NCBI GenBank assembly: GCA_019683615.1
Contig: JADGIC010000005.1
Location: 1-36,764, forward strand
From: Alicyclobacillaceae bacterium
GTDB lineage: Bacteria > Bacillota > Bacilli > Alicyclobacillales > Alicyclobacillaceae
Direction of reading: 5' to 3'
DNA: 36,764 nt
The notes beneath the pieces were generated by a model that worked only from the letters and a program-made list of their open reading frames with translations, was not told the DNA's origin and did not search any database. Of the stretch, positions 23,914-34,190 are shown one piece after another. Made by a program: the position numbers and the translations under genes. Position 1 is the first letter of the stretch. The number at the start of each line of letters is the position of its first letter.

Positions 23914-25278
23914 ATGGCTGCCGATGCTTCTGTGCTGTCCGAAGCATTTCGGTTGCCTCCGCAGCATATTGAAGCCGAACAGGCAGTGCTCGGCGGCATG
24001 TTGATTTCCGCGGACGCGGCCGCGGAGGCGGCGGAGTGGCTGGAACCCGACGACTTTTACAGTTCCGCGCACCAACTGATCTTTCAAGCCATGGTGGAAC
24101 TGTACGAGCAAGGCCGCCCCATCGATGTGGTCACCACCACCGCGGCCCTGCAGGAGCGGGAGGGTGCTCTGGAGCGTGCTGGAGGCGTCGACTACCTCGT
24201 CAAGTTGGCCGAGGCGATGCCAACGGCGCTGCACACGGAGCATTACGCCGCGATTGTGCGGGAAAAGGCGTTGCTGCGCCGGATTATCGCGGTGGCGAAC
24301 GAGATTGCGGCGGATTGTTTTCGCCAGGACCGGTCCGCAGGGGACGTCCTGGCCGATGCCGAACGTAAGATTCTCGAGCTGTCGGAACACCGGAAAGCCC
24401 GCGATTTTGTTCACATCAGCGAAGTGCTGGGCAGCACGTTCGAGCGGATCGAACAACTGTACGGCAGCGACGGACACATCACCGGCGTGCCAACCGGGTA
24501 CAGCGAGCTGGACCGGATGACGAGCGGGCTGCAAAAGTCGGACTTGATCATCGTCGCAGCAAGGCCGTCGGTCGGCAAAACTGCGTTTGCCCTAAACATC
24601 GCGCAAAACGTCGCTGTACGGGCTGGACTGCCGGTGGCCATCTTCAGCTTGGAGATGTCCCGGGATCAGCTGGTTCAGCGGATGCTGTGCGCCGAAGGGT
24701 ACATTGACGGGCACAAGCTGCGGACCGGCGCCTTGGACGATGACGACTGGCCGAAGCTGTCAATGGCCGTCAGCGCTCTCGGCAATGCGCCGATTTACAT
24801 CGACGATACCCCTGGGATCACGGTCTCCGAAATGCGCAGCAAGCTGCGCAGGTTGAAATCCCGCGCAGGTCTGGCGTTTGTCGTCATTGACTACTTGCAG
24901 CTCATCCACGGCCGCCGCTCCGCGAACGAAAACCGCCAGCAGGAGATATCCGAGATCTCCCGCATGCTGAAGCAACTGGCGCGCGAGCTGGACGTGCCGG
25001 TGTTGGCTTTGGCGCAGCTGAGCCGCTCGGTGGAGCAGCGGCAAGACAAGCGGCCGATGCTGTCAGACATTCGCGAGTCCGGCAGCATCGAGCAGGATGC
25101 GGACATCGTGGCGTTTCTATACCGGGAGGACTACTACAATCCGGAGACGGAGCGCAAGAACATCGTTGAGGTGCTGATCGCCAAGCAACGCAACGGGCCG
25201 ACGGGCAAGGTGGAACTGGTGTTTCTCAAGAACTACAACAAATTTGTCAACCTGGAAAAGGTGCACGCGCCCGCATGA
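23914..25278 (+). CDS. dnaB: Replicative DNA helicase DnaB (DnaC in B. subtilis)
   Basis: Hexameric helicase of the replication fork. It is 454 residues: an N-terminal primase-interacting domain (about 1-150, PPQHIEAEQAVLGGMLIS) and a RecA-like domain with Walker A ARPSVGKT (216-223), FSLEMSRDQLVQRMLC and FVVIDYLQLI. No intein interrupts the motor domain. The start follows rplI closely; its stop overlaps the next gene by four bases. Confidence 0.97.
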   Translation: MAADASVLSEAFRLPPQHIEAEQAVLGGMLISADAAAEAAEWLEPDDFYSSAHQLIFQAMVELYEQGRPIDVVTTTAALQEREGALERAGGVDYLVKLAEAMPTALHTEHYAAIVREKALLRRIIAVANEIAADCFRQDRSAGDVLADAERKILELSEHRKARDFVHISEVLGSTFERIEQLYGSDGHITGVPTGYSELDRMTSGLQKSDLIIVAARPSVGKTAFALNIAQNVAVRAGLPVAIFSLEMSRDQLVQRMLCAEGYIDGHKLRTGALDDDDWPKLSMAVSALGNAPIYIDDTPGITVSEMRSKLRRLKSRAGLAFVVIDYLQLIHGRRSANENRQQEISEISRMLKQLARELDVPVLALAQLSRSVEQRQDKRPMLSDIRESGSIEQDADIVAFLYREDYYNPETERKNIVEVLIAKQRNGPTGKVELVFLKNYNKFVNLEKVHAPA

Positions 25279-25712
25279 TGGAACTGGATCGTCCCCACGG
25301 CACACGCCGCCGCCATCAGGAGGCCCTCAGCCGGGCGCGGCGCCGACGGCGCAAGCGCCGGCGCGCCAGACTGCGCCGGGTGCGGGTGCTGCGCGCTCTT
25401 CGCACGGCTCGCTTCTGGGTGCGAGCCGGCATTGCTCTCACGTCGTTGGCGTGTGTGGCCTTCTGGTCGAAATTTGCGTTCGTTTACGACATTCCGGGAT
25501 ACGCAGCGCAGGGCCGCCTGACAGGGATCAGCGCCTACGTCACTGTAAAACCTTGGTGGTTCGGCCCGCCGGTGTTCAATCTGAAGGCGTATGGCACGCT
25601 GCCCGGCGACCGGTTTTCCACCACCAACCCGTACGCGGTGATGGTGGCCAAGCTGGGGCGGTACGACGCCGTGGTCTTGGAGCCCCGGTTTGTGTGGGTG
25701 AAGCCGCGTTGA
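25275..25712 (+). CDS. unrecognised basic single-pass membrane protein
   Basis: Protein of 145 residues that I do not recognise. It has a very basic N-terminus (about 10-45, [16 protein letters not shown]), one membrane segment (about 48-66, FWVRAGIALTSLACVAFW) and a C-terminal part of about 80 residues, probably outside, rich in aromatic and Pro/Gly residues (YVTVKPWWFGPPVFNLKAYG). It starts on the ATGA overlapping the dnaB stop, so it is translationally coupled to the helicase. It occupies part of the place where B. subtilis has purA. Confidence 0.7.
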   Translation: MMELDRPHGTRRRHQEALSRARRRRRKRRRARLRRVRVLRALRTARFWVRAGIALTSLACVAFWSKFAFVYDIPGYAAQGRLTGISAYVTVKPWWFGPPVFNLKAYGTLPGDRFSTTNPYAVMVAKLGRYDAVVLEPRFVWVKPR

Positions 25713-25726
25713 CAGGCGCCGGCTGC

Positions 25727-26095
25727 TCAGGTATAGCCGCCGCAGTCTTTGATCAGCCGGACCACGTCCTCCACCAAATGCTCCGGACATACCACGGTCA
25801 ACAGCCAATTGCGCCCGGTCACATTGTCCTCGCCGTCGCTCATGCCGCTTGCGGACGGGTCGGCCGCCAACAGCACGCCGGCATCGCGGCTGTCCGGTGT
25901 GTGCGACAAGGTGATTGACGCGAGGCCCGGAAACTGGCCGCTGATAATGAAGGCGTGCCGTTCCGGCGGTTCACCACCGTACGCGTGAAGCTCGTCGACC
26001 TGCGCTACGGGGATTCCCAGTGCGCGGATTTGCTCTGCGGCGCGAGAGGCGTCTGCCTCGCTGTGAAAGGACGCCAGGACGGTTCGCTCTTGCAA
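25727..26095 (-). CDS. unrecognised conserved-looking small protein
   Basis: Protein of 122 residues, MQERTVLASFHSEADASRAAEQIRALGIPVAQVDELHAYG onward. The N-terminal third looks like a beta-alpha unit of the ferredoxin-like kind found in YflT/general stress proteins, and the C-terminal LLTVVCPEHLVEDVVRLIKDCGG reads like a second one, so a small two-unit alpha/beta fold is possible. No membrane segment. TTG at 26095 follows a clear GGAGG. It is convergent with the upstream gene (14-bp gap) and divergent from walR. Function not known. Confidence 0.65.
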   Translation of the reverse strand: MQERTVLASFHSEADASRAAEQIRALGIPVAQVDELHAYGGEPPERHAFIISGQFPGLASITLSHTPDSRDAGVLLAADPSASGMSDGEDNVTGRNWLLTVVCPEHLVEDVVRLIKDCGGYT

Positions 26096-26207
26096 CCGAA
26101 CCACCTCCGCAAGATGGTGAGTGCAGCCGCCGAAACCGGTGTGCATCGGTAGTGTGATCTTTGCGTCGGCCCGGCATACTTGCGCGGGCTTCGAGGAGGT
26201 GCCACAC

Positions 26208-26900
26208 GTGGAACGGATCTTGGTGGTGGAGGACGAAGAACCGATTGCGGACATTCTCCGCTTTGCGCTGGAACGTGAAGGGTACGCTGTCGACACCGTC
26301 TGGGACGGGGCCGAGGCGCTACAGATGGTCCGGGCACACCCGCCCGATCTGATCCTGCTCGACCTGATGCTGCCCGAGAAAAACGGCTTTGACGTGTGTC
26401 GGGAAATCCGCGAGTTCAGCACCGTTCCCATCATCATTCTCACGGCCCGCGAGTCAGAAGTGGACAAGGTGTTGGGTTTGGAACTGGGTGCCGACGATTA
26501 CGTCACGAAACCGTTCAGCATGCGGGAGTTGTTGGCGCGGGTGAAAGCGAATCTCCGCCGGCGGGCGCTCGATACACGCACGGATGCCGCAGACGGCGGC
26601 CATCGCCTGCATCTCAGGGATATCGTCATTGACCTCGACCGCTACGAAGTGACCAAGCGGGATCAGGTGGTACCCCTCACGCACCGGGAATTTGAACTGC
26701 TGGCGTACCTGGCGTCGCGTCCGGGACAGGTGTTCACCCGCGAGGACCTCTTGTCAGAGGTGTGGGGCGCCGACTACGCGGGCGATGACCGAACGGTCGA
26801 CGTCACCATCCGCCGGTTGCGGGAAAAGGTGGAGGACGATCCGAGCCGCCCCACGTACGTGTTGACCAAGCGCGGCGTGGGGTATTATGTCAGCCGCTAG
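26208..26900 (+). CDS. walR: Two-component response regulator WalR (YycF)
   Basis: Essential regulator of cell-wall metabolism genes in low-GC Gram-positive bacteria. It is 230 residues: receiver domain with phosphorylated Asp52 (ILLDLMLPEKNG) and Lys in DYVTKPFS, then an OmpR-type winged helix ending RRLREKVEDDPSRPTYVLTKRGVGYYVSR. GTG at 26208 follows GAGGAGGTG. It heads the walRKHIJ-htrA operon. I could not find a clear promoter in the 112 bp upstream. Confidence 0.96.
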   Translation: MERILVVEDEEPIADILRFALEREGYAVDTVWDGAEALQMVRAHPPDLILLDLMLPEKNGFDVCREIREFSTVPIIILTARESEVDKVLGLELGADDYVTKPFSMRELLARVKANLRRRALDTRTDAADGGHRLHLRDIVIDLDRYEVTKRDQVVPLTHREFELLAYLASRPGQVFTREDLLSEVWGADYAGDDRTVDVTIRRLREKVEDDPSRPTYVLTKRGVGYYVSR

Positions 26901-26916: not shown

Positions 26917-28353
26917 ATGCGAAGTATTCGCGCCAAGCTGGTGCTAGTGCAAATGCTGCTGATCCTCTTCGCGCTGGAATTGATGGGGGCGTACTTCGTG
27001 CGGACCCTCTCCGCCTCGTTGATTCGCAGCGAGACGGACGCTGTGCTCAACCAGGCCCAACTGATGGCTGCGATGGCGGCTCCCATGCTCGAAGGCGGCC
27101 GGTCACCCGGCGGCAATCCCTTCCGCCCGTTGGCCGCGTCGTTTCCGGAACTGATGAGTGGGTCGGTCTACCTTTTGAACGCGCACGGCCTAGTCGTGGA
27201 CACGTCGGCGGGCAACGCGTTGATCGGCCAGACGCGAGTCGATTCCGTCGTGACACAGGCGATGGTGAACCGCCGACGGACGTTTGTGATCCGCTACGAC
27301 CCACTGAACCGTGCGCACCTGTTGGCAGTCGCCGTTCCGGTGTGGAACGGGCGCGTCATGGCGGGCGTGCTCGAATACGTGGTGCCGATTGAGCGAACGT
27401 ACCAGACCGTGGCGCAGGTCACGCGAATTTTCGAGACGGCAGGCCTGGCCGTACTCGGGTTGACCGCTGTCCTCGGCGTCGTGTTGTCCCGCACCATCAC
27501 GCGGCCGGTGTTGGAGGTCATCGGCCAGGCCCGCACGATGGCGGCAGGGGACTATTCGCGCCGGGTGGCGGTGCTCGGCAACGACGAGTTTGGGGTTCTC
27601 GCCCAAGCCATCAACGACCTCACGGAGCGCCTGGAACGGACCGAAGCGGAACAGGACCAGCTCGACCGCGCGCGGCGCGAGTTTGTCGCTAACGTCTCGC
27701 ATGAACTGCGCACGCCGCTGACCAGCATCAAATCGTACGTTGAAGCCCTGCTTGAGGAAGAGACGGATGCGGATACGAGGCGGCGGTTCTTGGCGGTCAT
27801 CGCCCGCGAAGCTGACCGCATGGCGCGATTGACCCGGGACCTGCTGCTTTTGTCCGGCCTCGACGAGGGGCGCATTCGGCGCGAGTCGGACATCGAAGTG
27901 GCCTCCTGGCTGCGCGAAGCGGTCGAGCGGTTCGCTCTGCAGGCACACGACGCCGGCCTCGACCTGCAGCTCCGCTGTGATACGCGCGGGGTGATCCGGG
28001 GCAACCGCGACATGCTCGACAGGGTCATGGACAACCTGATTGGCAACGCGATCGCCTACACCTCTCCCGGCGGCCGCGTGCTGGTGTCAGCTTCGAGCAA
28101 CGGGTATCACGTGCAAGTCCGCGTCGCCGATACGGGTATCGGCATTCCGGAAGCAGACCTGCCGCACGTGTTCGAACGGTTTTACCGGGTGGACAAGGCG
28201 CGTTCCCGGCGTCGCGGCGGAAGCGGCCTGGGATTGGCGCTGGCGAAGCAGATCACGGAACTGCACGGGGGGCAGATCTCCATTCAGAGCCGAGTCAATG
28301 AAGGGACCACCGTGACCGTGCGCTTGCCTTTGCGCCAAGGGGTGATACCGTGA
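26917..28353 (+). CDS. walK: Sensor histidine kinase WalK (YycG), short form
   Basis: Membrane sensor that phosphorylates WalR. It is 478 residues, against about 610 in B. subtilis. First membrane segment about 8-30, an extracellular sensor domain about 31-170, second segment about 173-191, HAMP about 192-245, then the H-box with His262 (FVANVSHELRTPLTS) and a kinase domain with N (DNLIGNAIAYT), G1 (VADTGIGIP) and GSGLGLALAK. The H-box follows HAMP almost directly, so the cytoplasmic PAS domain of typical WalK is missing. ATG at 26917 is preferred; ATG at 26887 overlapping walR is an alternative. Confidence 0.92.
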   Translation: MRSIRAKLVLVQMLLILFALELMGAYFVRTLSASLIRSETDAVLNQAQLMAAMAAPMLEGGRSPGGNPFRPLAASFPELMSGSVYLLNAHGLVVDTSAGNALIGQTRVDSVVTQAMVNRRRTFVIRYDPLNRAHLLAVAVPVWNGRVMAGVLEYVVPIERTYQTVAQVTRIFETAGLAVLGLTAVLGVVLSRTITRPVLEVIGQARTMAAGDYSRRVAVLGNDEFGVLAQAINDLTERLERTEAEQDQLDRARREFVANVSHELRTPLTSIKSYVEALLEEETDADTRRRFLAVIAREADRMARLTRDLLLLSGLDEGRIRRESDIEVASWLREAVERFALQAHDAGLDLQLRCDTRGVIRGNRDMLDRVMDNLIGNAIAYTSPGGRVLVSASSNGYHVQVRVADTGIGIPEADLPHVFERFYRVDKARSRRRGGSGLGLALAKQITELHGGQISIQSRVNEGTTVTVRLPLRQGVIP

Positions 28354-29663
28354 CTCGCTCGCGCGTCAAGTCGGCGTTGTTGGCTCTGCTCGTGTTGTTG
28401 AGTCTGGTTCTCAGCGACCTGCTGTGGAACGGCATTTGGGAGAACAACGGGGAAGTTGGCTTGGGTGATGCGTCGCCAGGTGCCTTGGCTGCGCATCCGG
28501 CCTACAGCGAGGTAACGGCACCCTGTCAGTTGCTGTTTTTCTTGGCGAAACCGGACCGGTACGCCGTGGCGCTGCCGGCGACAGCCCCCTACGGCCAGTG
28601 GCTGCAGCGGCTTCAGGAGGTCCAAATCAGCGGGTTGCACGTCAGTCCGGAGGGCCCGCCGGAGCCCGTTGACGCCGCAGCCGAGTTCGACTTCGGGGCA
28701 GAACTGGACCGCAGTGCGCTGGAACAGTGGTTACCAGGGTTGCGTGCGTACGGTTTTGGCGTCCGCGGCCGGCGAATCCGCCTGTGGTGTTCACCAGGTG
28801 CCGCCTTAGCAAGCTTAACGGTGGAGGCGCAAGGGGTTCGCTACAGTGCAAACACCAACCTGCCGGCCGCGCGGCTGCGATCCTGGGTGCAAAAGGTGCC
28901 GGGCCTCGGCCAGTGGGAGCCCCTGCCAGGAGTCGCTGTCGGCGCCGCCAGCACAGCCAGCCTCGTACCGGCACGCGGATTGCTGGTTAACCGCGAGGAA
29001 TGGGCGACGGTTCTGCCGCCGCGCACCTCGTTGGTACACTCGTTCTTCGTCAACCCGTCCGTGTTGACGACCATTCGACAGACGGCACAGACGTATGTGT
29101 GGACGGACGGAAGCCGGCTGGTCTGGTGGAATAACGCTGACGGACGCCTCACTTACGAAGACCCGAACGTCCCTGCCAGCGGCCCGCCCAGGCAAGGGAA
29201 TCCGCTGACCGCTGTGCTGTTCATCGAAGATCACGGCGGCGGGCCGGCGAATTTGCGTGCCTACCAACCGGAGACTGACTGGTCGACGTTTGAAGAAGGC
29301 CTGTGGAGGTTCCGTCCTTCTGTCGACGGACTGCCCGTGGTTGACGGCTCTCAAGACTACGTGGTGCAGATTCAGGGCGGGCAGGTTGTCGAATTCCGCA
29401 GGCCGCTGCGGGAGTTTGCGCGCCGCCTCAGCGTCACGAGGGTGCGCGTGTTGGGAGCCGCTGCGCTGCGGGCTCGCTTGTCGGCGTTGTTGCCGTCGAC
29501 ACCCGTGCGTTCGTTGCAAGTGCAACTGGGCTATGCGGTCGCCGAACAAGCCGGCGAGCAGGTCGCGTTGGAGCCGGTGTACGCGGTCCAAGAAGACGGT
29601 CTCAACGTGTTGCTGTTAGACGCGGTCACCGGCCGGCCACTGCGGGAGGCTGGCTCCCCATGA
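28350..29663 (+). CDS. walH: WalK accessory protein WalH (YycH)
   Basis: YycH family protein, 437 residues, with one N-terminal membrane segment (about 7-24) and a large extracellular part. In B. subtilis YycH and YycI bind WalK in the membrane and restrain it. Sequence conservation is low, as usual for the family; the call rests on topology, length (~450) and the walK-walH-walI order. GTG overlaps the walK stop by four bases. Confidence 0.82.
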   Translation: MTRSRVKSALLALLVLLSLVLSDLLWNGIWENNGEVGLGDASPGALAAHPAYSEVTAPCQLLFFLAKPDRYAVALPATAPYGQWLQRLQEVQISGLHVSPEGPPEPVDAAAEFDFGAELDRSALEQWLPGLRAYGFGVRGRRIRLWCSPGAALASLTVEAQGVRYSANTNLPAARLRSWVQKVPGLGQWEPLPGVAVGAASTASLVPARGLLVNREEWATVLPPRTSLVHSFFVNPSVLTTIRQTAQTYVWTDGSRLVWWNNADGRLTYEDPNVPASGPPRQGNPLTAVLFIEDHGGGPANLRAYQPETDWSTFEEGLWRFRPSVDGLPVVDGSQDYVVQIQGGQVVEFRRPLREFARRLSVTRVRVLGAAALRARLSALLPSTPVRSLQVQLGYAVAEQAGEQVALEPVYAVQEDGLNVLLLDAVTGRPLREAGSP

Positions 29664-30493
29664 ACTGGGAAACGGCGAAGACTTGGCTGATTGGCATGTT
29701 TCTCATCCTTGACGCGCTTTTGGGATGGCAGCTGCTGCAGAGCCGGCGCGAGATGATGGGGTATGCAGAGTCGTACGCCGACCGGTTGGCGAACACAAAG
29801 ACGCTGCTGGCGGAAAGCGGATTCATCCTCAAGGCGGCGGTGCCGTCCGGCCACCCGGACATGCCTTCCTTGCACGGCCGGTGGGCACGGCCAGCTATGG
29901 CCGATCTCGCCCGGTGCGCTTTTCCCGGCGCCAAACGCCCTGCCGTCTCCGCGGCGGGCATGGTCAGCACGCCGGACGGGATTCTCCGCCTGTCTGGCCC
30001 AGGCCAGTGGACGGTGGCGTATGCGCGCCCCCCGCAGTTGGGGACAGACGTGTCGTCCGTTGCCTCGTACATCTGGCGCGCCGCCGATTACGCGCCAGAC
30101 CCGGCGGGCGGCGACGCCGGGGACGTCGTCATGTTTCAACGCTACCACGGCTATCCCGTGTTCGATGCACAAGTGGATCTGCAGATCAAGCAGCGAAGGC
30201 TGCAAAGCTACACGCAAACCGCCGTCGTCGACATGGTGCTTGCAGGGGACCCGAAGCCGGTGATCCCGGCGTTGCAAGCGTTGGCGAACCTGGCCGGGGC
30301 CGTGGACAGGTTGAACCCGAACCCTGATAATGAAATTGTGCGGGTCGACCTCGGATACGCGAGGAAAGTGTCGGTTGCGGCTGGCACGAACGCAGACACG
30401 TCCGACTACTGGTTTCCCGTTTGGCGGGTCGCCACGACTTTCGGAGACTACTATATCAACGCGTTTTCCGGTGAGGTTGAAGCCACACCGTGA
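29660..30493 (+). CDS. walI: WalK accessory protein WalI (YycI)
   Basis: YycI-like protein of 277 residues with an N-terminal membrane helix (MNWETAKTWLIGMFLILDALLGWQL) and an extracellular domain containing GYPVFDAQVDLQIKQRRLQSYTQT and a C-terminal YWFPVWRVATTFGDYYINAFSGEVE. It partners WalH. The ATG overlaps the walH stop by four bases. It ends just before walJ. Confidence 0.85.
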   Translation: MNWETAKTWLIGMFLILDALLGWQLLQSRREMMGYAESYADRLANTKTLLAESGFILKAAVPSGHPDMPSLHGRWARPAMADLARCAFPGAKRPAVSAAGMVSTPDGILRLSGPGQWTVAYARPPQLGTDVSSVASYIWRAADYAPDPAGGDAGDVVMFQRYHGYPVFDAQVDLQIKQRRLQSYTQTAVVDMVLAGDPKPVIPALQALANLAGAVDRLNPNPDNEIVRVDLGYARKVSVAAGTNADTSDYWFPVWRVATTFGDYYINAFSGEVEATP

Positions 30494-30531
30494 GCGGCGT
30501 GCCGCCAAGCCGTCGGAAAGGGAGGTCCGGG

Positions 30532-31344
30532 ATGGTGCGGTTCAGCGTTCTGGCCAGCGGCAGCAGCGGCAATGCGGTGTTTGTCCAGGCGGGATCGACC
30601 CGGTTGTTAATTGACGCCGGGATCAGCGGACGCCAGTTGGATGCCCGTTTGCGGCAGGCGGCAGGCATCGGCTTGAGCGACGTCGATGCCATCTTCGTCA
30701 CGCATGAACATGTCGATCACGTCCGCGGCCTGGAACAGGTCTTGAAACGCACCCGCGCCGACGCGCCGGTGTATTTGACGGACGGCACACAGGCAGGATT
30801 GGGCCCGGGCTGCCGGGATTTGCTGCAGCCACGGGCACGGCGGATCCGGCACGGCGTCCCCGTGCTGGTCGGGGATCTGACGGTCACCCCGGTGTCCGTC
30901 TCGCACGACGCGGAGGAACCGGTCGCCCTGCGGTTGGACGGGGTCGCGGCGAGTCTGGGCATTCTCACCGACACCGGATATGTCAGCGACGCAGTTTTGT
31001 CCGTGATGGCCGGATGCCGGGCGTACATATGGGAGAGCAATCACGACGTCGACATGCTCCGGACCGGCCCGTATCCCTGGAACGTAAAGCGGCGCATCCT
31101 CGGCGACAAAGGCCACTTGTCCAACGCCGACTCTGCATCCGCCTTGGCGGAGGTGACGGCTCTCACTTCTGGGCAGGTCGACGTGTACTTGGCTCATCTC
31201 AGCGCGGAAAACAACCGCCCGGCGCTCGCCTTGGCGGCTGCGGAGCAGATGATTGGCGAGCGAGGTGAGGCGCACCGGCGACGAGTCAAACTGCACGTCG
31301 CGGGGCCCGATGCGCCAACACCGCTGCACACCCTGTCCTCTTGA
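30532..31344 (+). CDS. walJ: Metallo-beta-lactamase-fold hydrolase WalJ (YycJ)
   Basis: Cytoplasmic metal-dependent exonuclease family member of 270 residues; YycJ of B. subtilis has 5'-3' exonuclease activity and a link to replication and division control. The metal motif HEHVDH (58-63) follows SGSSGNA (10-16) and LLIDAG; later ESNHDVDML and AHLSAENN carry further ligands. ATG at 30532 follows GGGAGG; an earlier GTG at 30490 has no site. Confidence 0.93.
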   Translation: MVRFSVLASGSSGNAVFVQAGSTRLLIDAGISGRQLDARLRQAAGIGLSDVDAIFVTHEHVDHVRGLEQVLKRTRADAPVYLTDGTQAGLGPGCRDLLQPRARRIRHGVPVLVGDLTVTPVSVSHDAEEPVALRLDGVAASLGILTDTGYVSDAVLSVMAGCRAYIWESNHDVDMLRTGPYPWNVKRRILGDKGHLSNADSASALAEVTALTSGQVDVYLAHLSAENNRPALALAAAEQMIGERGEAHRRRVKLHVAGPDAPTPLHTLSS

Positions 31345-31426
31345 CGCTGGTATAGTGCCGGAACGGGCGGGACAGACTGAGTCTGGACGCCCGGCTGGCG
31401 GGCCGGTACAGGGGACGGTGAGACCG

Positions 31427-32752
<1,326 letters not shown>

Positions 32753-32815: not shown

Positions 32816-33295
32816 ATGCGCTGGATGGTGATTGGTGTCGGCCGGGTTCGCGAACGCTTCTGGCAAGAAGCGCTCGCAGAGTACGCCAAGCGGCTGTCGC
32901 GGTATGTGGATTTGGAACTGGTGGAGGTCGATGACGAGCGCCTGCCGGACAACCTGTCGGCTGCACAGGTCCGGCAAGCCCGTCAAGCTGAAGCCCGCCG
33001 TGTGGAGCGATGGCTCCGGGAACGCGACGGGCTCGTGGCGTTGGACGCCAAGGGCACGATGATGTCGTCTGAACAGTGGAGCCAGACCTGCCAAGCCTTG
33101 CAAGGAAAAGGTTACGGCAGATTGGTGTTCGTCGTCGGCGGGTCGGCCGGGCTGGACGACTCGTTGATCCAGCGCGCCGACGTTTGCTGGAGCTTCGGTC
33201 CGATCACGCTGCCTCACGCCTTGGCCCGCGTCGTGCTGTTGGAGCAGTTGTACCGGGGGATCCGGATTGCCCGCGGGGAGCCATACCATAAATGA
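32816..33295 (+). CDS. rlmH: 23S rRNA pseudouridine-1915 N3-methyltransferase RlmH
   Basis: SPOUT methyltransferase that modifies pseudouridine 1915 in 23S rRNA using SAM. It is 159 residues with the trefoil-knot motifs LVFVVGGSAGLDDSL and the C-terminal ITLPHALARVVLLEQLYRGIRIARGEPYHK. ATG follows GGGGG. It ends the wal operon region and converges with the next gene. Confidence 0.96.
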   Translation: MRWMVIGVGRVRERFWQEALAEYAKRLSRYVDLELVEVDDERLPDNLSAAQVRQARQAEARRVERWLRERDGLVALDAKGTMMSSEQWSQTCQALQGKGYGRLVFVVGGSAGLDDSLIQRADVCWSFGPITLPHALARVVLLEQLYRGIRIARGEPYHK

Positions 33296-33329: not shown

Positions 33330-34190
33330 TCAGGATTCGGAGGGGCTTGAATGGGGGCGCGGCGAAACGCCCTGGCGCCGGTCCGCGGCCGGGAGCACGA
33401 CCCGGATCCGCGTGCCGCCTGCCGGTCGGCTGCTGACGCTGACACTGGCGCCGATGTCGCGGGCGCGGCTGTGCATAATGTCCAGGCCGTAGTGGCGATC
33501 CGCTACGGGTGTCTCGGGGATGCCGGCGCCGTCATCCTCAATCGTGAACTCCCAGCCGTTTCGACCGGCGGGCTGCAGCGACACCCACAGGTGCTTGGCG
33601 CCGGCGTGCTTTTGCACGTTGGTCACGGCTTCCTGGAAAATGCCGAACAGCTGGACTTGCTCCGCCGGCGTCATCGCCGGCGGGGAGGGGGGAAACGACA
33701 CCTGCCACCGCAAGCTCCCGTCCGGCAAGTGGGCGCGCAGGTACGAACGGATTCTGTCCTCTAGGTGGATGCCGTCGGTTTCGCCGGCCCGCAGGTTGAA
33801 GATGGCTTGGCGGATGTTGTCGTCCATTTCCCGCAGCGACTGCAACACATCGGCCAACTTGTCGTGCAAGGCGCGGTTTCCTGTTTGCTCAGTCAACTTC
33901 AGGGCAGACTGCAGTTGCACGCCGGCGAAAAACATCGTTTGCGCGATTTGATCATGCAAAACTCTGGCCAGCCGCTCGCGTTCTTCCAGAATGGCGCGCG
34001 ACGCTCGTTCCCGGTGAAGTTCCAGTTGTGTGCGGGCGGCTTCTTGGAACCAGCGGCGGGAAACCAGGGCAATGACCGCGGCGTCAATCACGGGAGTCAG
34101 CCAGTTGCCGACGCTCATCGGCAGCCAGTGGATCAACACCGTGTGGCGCAACTCCTCAAATCCCGCGATGACCAAGGCGGGCACAAGCAA
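33330..34190 (-). CDS. LiaS/DegS-type sensor histidine kinase
   Basis: Histidine kinase of the HisKA_3 class. Numbering from the TTG at 34190 gives 286 residues: a membrane segment near 31-45 (and probably one before it), then the H-box ERERLARVLHDQIAQTMFFAGVQLQ with His79, and a HATPase domain with EAVTNVQKHA and DDGAGIP. It divides from the response regulator at 34372, its likely partner. The perfect GGAGGTGATC (34219-34228 region) lies about 33 bases before that TTG. It is ideally placed for an in-frame ACG at 34214 that would add T-RRRRWLL, a good membrane-protein start. Confidence 0.86.
   Translation of the reverse strand: MLVPALVIAGFEELRHTVLIHWLPMSVGNWLTPVIDAAVIALVSRRWFQEAARTQLELHRERASRAILEERERLARVLHDQIAQTMFFAGVQLQSALKLTEQTGNRALHDKLADVLQSLREMDDNIRQAIFNLRAGETDGIHLEDRIRSYLRAHLPDGSLRWQVSFPPSPPAMTPAEQVQLFGIFQEAVTNVQKHAGAKHLWVSLQPAGRNGWEFTIEDDGAGIPETPVADRHYGLDIMHSRARDIGASVSVSSRPAGGTRIRVVLPAADRRQGVSPRPHSSPSES

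Follow-up and report, generated by a model that had tools for sequence, protein, structure and literature searches.

The wal gene cluster and its sensor kinase

The window, by which we mean the whole stretch of 36,764 nucleotides analysed here, belongs to a draft genome of the family Alicyclobacillaceae (224 contigs with a total of 2.41 Mb; completeness 85.6%), which is the single genome sampled from its genus. Around the gene walK, the order of genes is dnaB-walR-walK-walH-walI-walJ-htrA-rlmH. In Gram-positive bacteria, WalK is an essential sensor kinase of the cell wall; most Firmicutes cannot live without the WalRK system, and it is attractive as a target for antibiotics. The reading frame at 26917-28353 (+) is unbroken and translates to 478 residues; an alternative in-frame ATG at 26887, upstream of this start, would give a product of 488 residues. 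The sequence of the window is free of N letters. The features of the locus are the following:

23914-25278, + strand: DnaB replicative helicase, upstream neighbour (Pfam DnaB_C 385.5 bits, DnaB 117.9 bits)
26121-26900, + strand: WalR response regulator (NCBIfam resp_reg_YycF 340.5 bits, cut-off 340; Pfam Response_reg and Trans_reg_C)
26917-28353, + strand: WalK, 478 aa, without cytoplasmic PAS domain (Pfam domains; family WalK clade 100/100)
26938-26994, + strand: WalK transmembrane segment TM1, residues 8-26 (hydropathy scan)
27166-27369, + strand: WalK probable extracellular Cache domain, residues 84-151 (Pfam Cache_WalK 18.0 bits, below its cut-off of 27)
27427-27483, + strand: WalK transmembrane segment TM2, residues 171-189 (hydropathy scan)
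27481-27636, + strand: WalK HAMP domain, residues 189-240 (Pfam HAMP 52.0 bits)
27637-27669, + strand: WalK junction, residues 241-251, site of the PAS domain in relatives (alignments)
27670-27870, + strand: WalK HisKA/DHp domain, residues 252-318 (Pfam HisKA 73.7 bits)
27700-27702, + strand: WalK phospho-acceptor His262 (invariant in alignment A1)
28003-28335, + strand: WalK HATPase_c domain, residues 363-473 (Pfam 111.6 bits)
28350-29663, + strand: WalH (YycH) (Pfam YycH 35.0 bits, cut-off 27)
29660-30493, + strand: WalI (YycI) (Pfam YycI 57.4 bits, cut-off 29.7)
30490-31344, + strand: WalJ-type metallo-beta-lactamase-fold protein (Pfam Lactamase_B_2 77.2 bits)
31253-32752, + strand: HtrA-type serine protease (Pfam Trypsin_2 and PDZ_2; HtrA models)
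32816-33295, + strand: RlmH, a SPOUT methyltransferase (Pfam SPOUT_MTase 163.2 bits)

The Pfam scan detected no PAS family in the kinase at E ≤ 1, with filters that discard most matches beyond E of about 0.1. As a control, PAS (PF00989) and PAS_4 were each matched in 19 of 29 WalK rows at E ≤ 0.1, three of these rows being PAS-less. Pfam thus overlooks some of the real PAS domains of WalK, which makes length the firmer evidence. The matches of HAMP and HisKA are separated by 11 residues and His262 is 22 residues past the end of the HAMP match; consequently there is no room for a PAS domain, the size of which is about 100 residues. In agreement with the original prediction, the kinase lacks the cytoplasmic PAS domain and consists of 478 residues with His262 as phospho-acceptor, as unbroken translation and HisKA match concur. 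The proposed closeness of HAMP and HisKA was likewise found, whereas the end of HAMP, placed at about residue 245, is at residue 240 according to Pfam. For the extracellular part, a structure predicted with AlphaFold contains Cache-like strands within residues 83-157, and Cache_WalK was matched at E ≤ 0.1 in all 29 rows of alignment A1.

The operon partners that had been expected (WalH, WalI, a WalJ-type protein and HtrA) are all present and in order, as judged from Pfam and the HtrA models. The score of WalR is only 0.5 bits above the equivalog cut-off; in its ORF, the receiver domain begins at residue 33 and the listed start codon is GTG, and the real start is probably located downstream. 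Both WalH and WalI possess a single N-terminal transmembrane segment (residues 8-26 in either case, hydropathy scan). The name WalJ was assigned by gene position. The TTG listed as start of htrA overlaps walJ, and here the real start is probably later. Three further frames accompany the cluster. A 145-aa ORF at 25275-25712 (+), in the interval between dnaB and walR, has a very basic N-terminus with a likely membrane segment and gave no match in Pfam or NCBIfam. On the opposite strand, a 246-aa ORF at 25727-26467 (-) is antisense to and overlaps the start of the walR ORF; it has a sub-threshold SPOR match only, and its listed start is probably too early. Downstream of rlmH, a HisKA_3-type histidine kinase is encoded on the opposite strand at 33330-34190 (-).

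Descent of the kinase and comparison with relatives

The model HK_WalK (NF033092) scored the window kinase with 416.1 bits, which is under its cut-off of 725 bits. None of the 59 genomes sampled from the order attains this cut-off, which therefore does not discriminate here. Judged by descent and operon, the protein is a WalK of variant architecture; the cytoplasmic PAS domain belongs to the usual architecture of WalK and was not used as a criterion of descent. In a tree of 66 rows, for which the PAS and junction columns were left out, the protein is placed inside the WalK clade of the Alicyclobacillaceae (support 100/100), and this family groups with its sister family at 97/94. The alignment shows that H262, E263, T266, N377, D405 and G407 are conserved.

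Both halves of the protein are related to WalK of the family to a similar degree: the best identity is 139/234 for residues 1-235 and 140/219 for residues 259-478. Since kinases with HAMP followed by HisKA and no PAS domain are common, the protein could have acquired its kinase half, or the stretch from HAMP to DHp, from such an unrelated enzyme by recombination. Both halves are about equally near to the family WalKs, the residues just past the join included, and we regard such a domain swap as extremely improbable.

Four named records (A. kakegawensis, A. shizuokensis, A. mali and A. hesperidum) have all 25-mers in common with a locus from the genomes of this family, which identifies it as Alicyclobacillaceae, class Bacilli; orders and genera in our counts follow the classification of the search tool. 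Among the other Alicyclobacillaceae genomes sampled, all 40 encode a WalK with a PAS-sized segment. In 37 of them, the gene has a frame of 584-661 aa that matches HK_WalK over almost its full profile length; in three genomes where a contig end cuts the gene (G001, G012, G056), the segment was judged by alignment. In this sample, the loss is therefore restricted to one lineage, and a short WalK shared throughout the family, as considered in the original prediction, is excluded. From the other families of Alicyclobacillales, 18 genomes were inspected; 15 of these possess a full-length WalK and three (G029, G057, G058) gave paralogue-level matches only. The distance from the conserved HAMP asparagine to the phospho-histidine is 29 residues in the window kinase versus 128-151 residues in 23 of 23 aligned relatives, and the net difference at the junction amounts to 99-122 residues. 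The residues following the join can be aligned without gaps to the helix that follows the PAS domain in the relatives.

The loss of the PAS domain could also be a consequence of decay of the kinase or of its replacement by another WalK-like kinase. The terminal branch of the window WalK is longish (0.55 versus a median of 0.28 over all rows of the tree), which could signal relaxed constraint, and two longer WalK-like kinases are encoded elsewhere in the genome (on contigs C219 and C21). On the other hand, the frame is open, the catalytic columns are conserved and the operon is complete. Moreover, the paralogues on C219 and C21 group separately from the WalK rows, with long branches of their own, and HK_WalK was matched two or three times (E ≤ 1e-95) in 38 of the 40 remaining genomes of the family. 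Second kinases are thus usual beside a PAS-bearing WalK, which makes the two paralogues unlikely replacements; we consider decay or replacement very unlikely.

Spacing of the join and a second WalK without PAS domain

In the window kinase, the HAMP asparagine is N233 and its distance to H262 is the above-mentioned 29 residues. We compared this value with a sample of 82 kinase ORFs from 80 loci. The HAMP motif searched for is present in 34 ORFs, and 48 could not be measured by means of this motif. Four of the 34 are PAS-bearing WalKs of Alicyclobacillus (L031-L034) with a spacing of 132. The remaining 30, kinases with a short linker between HAMP and HisKA, have a spacing of 22 (22 rows), 29 (7 rows) or 36 (1 row); all three values equal 1 modulo 7, i.e. 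they are whole heptads apart. Some of these rows are near-copies and all were retrieved with the window protein, so that they do not represent 30 independent cases; in this set, the spacing of the window kinase differs from the commonest one. A heptad hydrophobicity score computed for the linker was uninformative. According to a review (PMC6798134), discrete linker lengths have been described for a class of sensor kinases, and the activity of an engineered sensor kinase depends on linker length by heptads.

A census of the class was based on the Cache_WalK domain. Among the matches listed, 132 of 151 genomes contain one at E ≤ 1e-4. The best match has E ≤ 3.1e-12 in 118 genomes, and 116 of these 118 best matches are in frames of at least 587 aa, again among the matches listed; the two short frames belong to G063 (540 aa) and G086 (526 aa). 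The 14 genomes outside this length count are eight Alicyclobacillaceae and G074, G082, G090, G114, G128 and G190. In G074, the best Cache_WalK match among those listed is in a 476-aa frame (G074:C2); the genome also has an HK_WalK match at 7.9e-202, and the short frame was taken for a second kinase. Weak Cache_WalK matches in short frames, each beside a full-length WalK or a WalK-like match, were noticed in several genomes, for example in G152:C18, G068:C13 and G153:C1 (at about 2.2 Mb). The window kinase itself is below the threshold of the census and likewise absent from the HK_WalK matches at E ≤ 1e-95; hence, other divergent short WalKs could have been missed.

In nine genomes, no match of WalR was found at E ≤ 1e-85: G078, G097, G112 and G126, which belong to one family of Bacilli, and G072, G141, G029, G057 and G058. 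Their WalK matches are weak or missing among those listed. Both G078 and G097 consist of a single contig and are 99% complete; G057 and G058 are 60-65% complete. The nine genomes may lack WalRK or may encode a strongly diverged form of it.

G063 (97% complete) and G086 (100% complete) were found by way of genomes with weak best HK_WalK matches; they are the only two sampled genomes of their order, which is not the order of the window. Like the window, both encode WalR, a PAS-less WalK, WalH and WalI in an operon (loci L213 and L212). WalR scores above its cut-off and is followed by a WalK of 499 and 510 aa, respectively, which comprises Cache_WalK (58.8 and 60.0 bits), HAMP, HisKA and HATPase_c, and no PAS domain. 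Their HAMP asparagine is 22 residues from the histidine, not 29, and the join is a different one: part of the linker between HAMP and PAS is retained and the kinase is entered at EFVANVSHELRTP, whereas the join of the window kinase retains the helix following the PAS domain. On the tree, the PAS-less trait requires two changes. Uniting the three PAS-less rows in a single clade was rejected (AU test, p 0.00032). From this phylogenetic point of view, the losses in the window WalK and in the WalK of G063 and G086 are independent events.

These data also allow us to judge whether the short gene is an assembly or binning artefact, i.e. whether the gene of the organism has full length and its PAS-coding part is merely missing from the contig. 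The draft state of the genome, its isolated position as sole sampled member of the genus and the presence of the segment in every other family genome sampled favour this explanation, and the original prediction had regarded full-length WalK in close relatives as a sign of an assembly deletion. Full-length relatives do exist, but all of those sampled belong to other genera. Furthermore, the join preserves both the reading frame and the phase of the coiled coil, which a random deletion is estimated to achieve about once in 21 cases (1/3 x 1/7), and the gapless match of the residues past the join to the relatives' post-PAS helix also speaks against an artefact. When the PAS segment of a relative was used as query, it was not found elsewhere in the window's own genome, in the 85.6% that is available; the best hit (E 0.0137) is part of another kinase (C21). 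Finally, a PAS-less WalK occurs in two other genomes of good quality. Taken together, we consider an artefact unlikely. It is highly probable that the protein is a real WalK orthologue from which the PAS domain disappeared when a net total of about 100 codons was deleted in frame from the region joining the HAMP output helix to the DHp helix.

Signal transfer and the role of the PAS domain

The AlphaFold model of the window WalK (monomer, 19 sequences, mean pLDDT 82, pTM 0.47) shows one continuous helix spanning residues 224-279, from HAMP through the junction and His262, with a pLDDT of about 75-80 near the junction. The top-ranked PDB match of the model is the WalK-YycH model 9a5d_A, with a TM-score of only 0.44. 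The deletion would have left a spacing of 29 residues between N233 and H262 and would thus have retained the coiled-coil phase of HAMP-to-kinase fusions. In the arrangement suggested by the model, the HAMP output helix would feed directly into DHp in the manner of CpxA. CpxA and other HAMP-DHp kinases likewise carry DHp directly after HAMP, and CpxA chains can be aligned by sequence to residues 220-472 of the window WalK; CpxA is not known to be a WalK by descent. Kinase output would then be set by signals of the extracellular Cache domain and by contacts with WalH and WalI in the membrane, without an input from a cytoplasmic PAS domain.

The sequence features described above suggest that the short WalK is active as a kinase and that WalH and WalI still act on it. 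With WalR, WalH, WalI, the WalJ-type protein, HtrA and RlmH in place, continued control by WalH and WalI can fairly be inferred. For B. subtilis, two reports state that WalK needs its extracellular domain in order to respond when wall hydrolysis changes, and that WalH and WalI exert their action by way of the membrane complex (PMC7299342, PMC8534201). The window still encodes these parts. In PMC7299342, the PAS domain is proposed as no more than a possible sensor of a signal from the cytoplasm. A role of this domain in septal localisation of B. subtilis WalK is mentioned in PMC6624279. In S. pneumoniae, removal of PAS reportedly lowered the autokinase activity and lowered the phosphatase activity more, as cited from Gutu 2010 in PMC3582566; the loss of the domain may thus not be neutral. 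Functions that depend on PAS, such as septal targeting and the balance of kinase and phosphatase, may have been lost in the window WalK or may be carried by other parts.

The original prediction had additionally pointed to zinc binding by the PAS domain. In S. aureus WalK, the zinc ligands are His271, Asp274, His364 and Glu368; among the WalKs aligned in that study, the full set is confined to staphylococci and enterococci, and B. subtilis 168 has a tyrosine at position 271 (Monk et al., PMC6624279). In our set, these positions were located from the spacing of motifs and not from a structure. All 23 Alicyclobacillaceae WalKs carry an arginine at the position of His364, a histidine at position 271 occurs in three of them (L012, L016, L023), and the full ligand set in none. 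This finding indicates that there was no zinc site of the S. aureus type to lose, so that the zinc-binding PAS domain is not the relevant comparison and a loss of zinc sensing along with PAS was rejected. Among 20 WalKs from other families of the class, seven possess all four ligand letters (L222, L225, L226, L233, L234, L237, L238); they belong to seven different families, which may include staphylococci or enterococci. Judging by these letters, the zinc site may be spread more widely than PMC6624279 proposed.

With the canonical WalK (YycG) of B. subtilis and S. aureus, the window kinase shares the operon, a probable Cache domain, two transmembrane segments, HAMP, HisKA, HATPase, WalH and WalI; it differs by the missing cytoplasmic PAS domain and is about 100 residues shorter than the WalKs of its family. 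Streptococcal VicK is comparable in having the WalK kinase core and lacking one sensor domain, and it represents the reverse loss: the extracellular domain is gone and the cytoplasmic PAS domain was kept (PMC3734008 and PMC3582566). Thus, one variant is already in print, namely WalK of streptococci and Lactococcus without extracellular domain, and a published survey lists a cytoplasmic PAS domain for WalK of all species examined. A search covering top-ranked titles and the openings of abstracts did not turn up any WalK described as lacking the cytoplasmic PAS domain. As far as can be told, the kinase is a known one and its PAS-less architecture appears to be a new variant.

On the whole, we think it rather likely that WalK can do without the cytoplasmic PAS domain and that Bacilli have lost it on at least two occasions, in each case through a deletion that kept the heptads of the HAMP-DHp helix whole, which would make these genomes a natural PAS-deletion experiment showing which joins work. 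That the PAS-less WalKs keep WalH and WalI would indicate the parts of the system that are able to work without PAS. The finding is modest by itself. What makes the role of the PAS domain testable is that a second case arose independently and that the spacing follows a rule which can be measured; the natural joins may serve as ready designs for deleting the domain cleanly in a laboratory strain.
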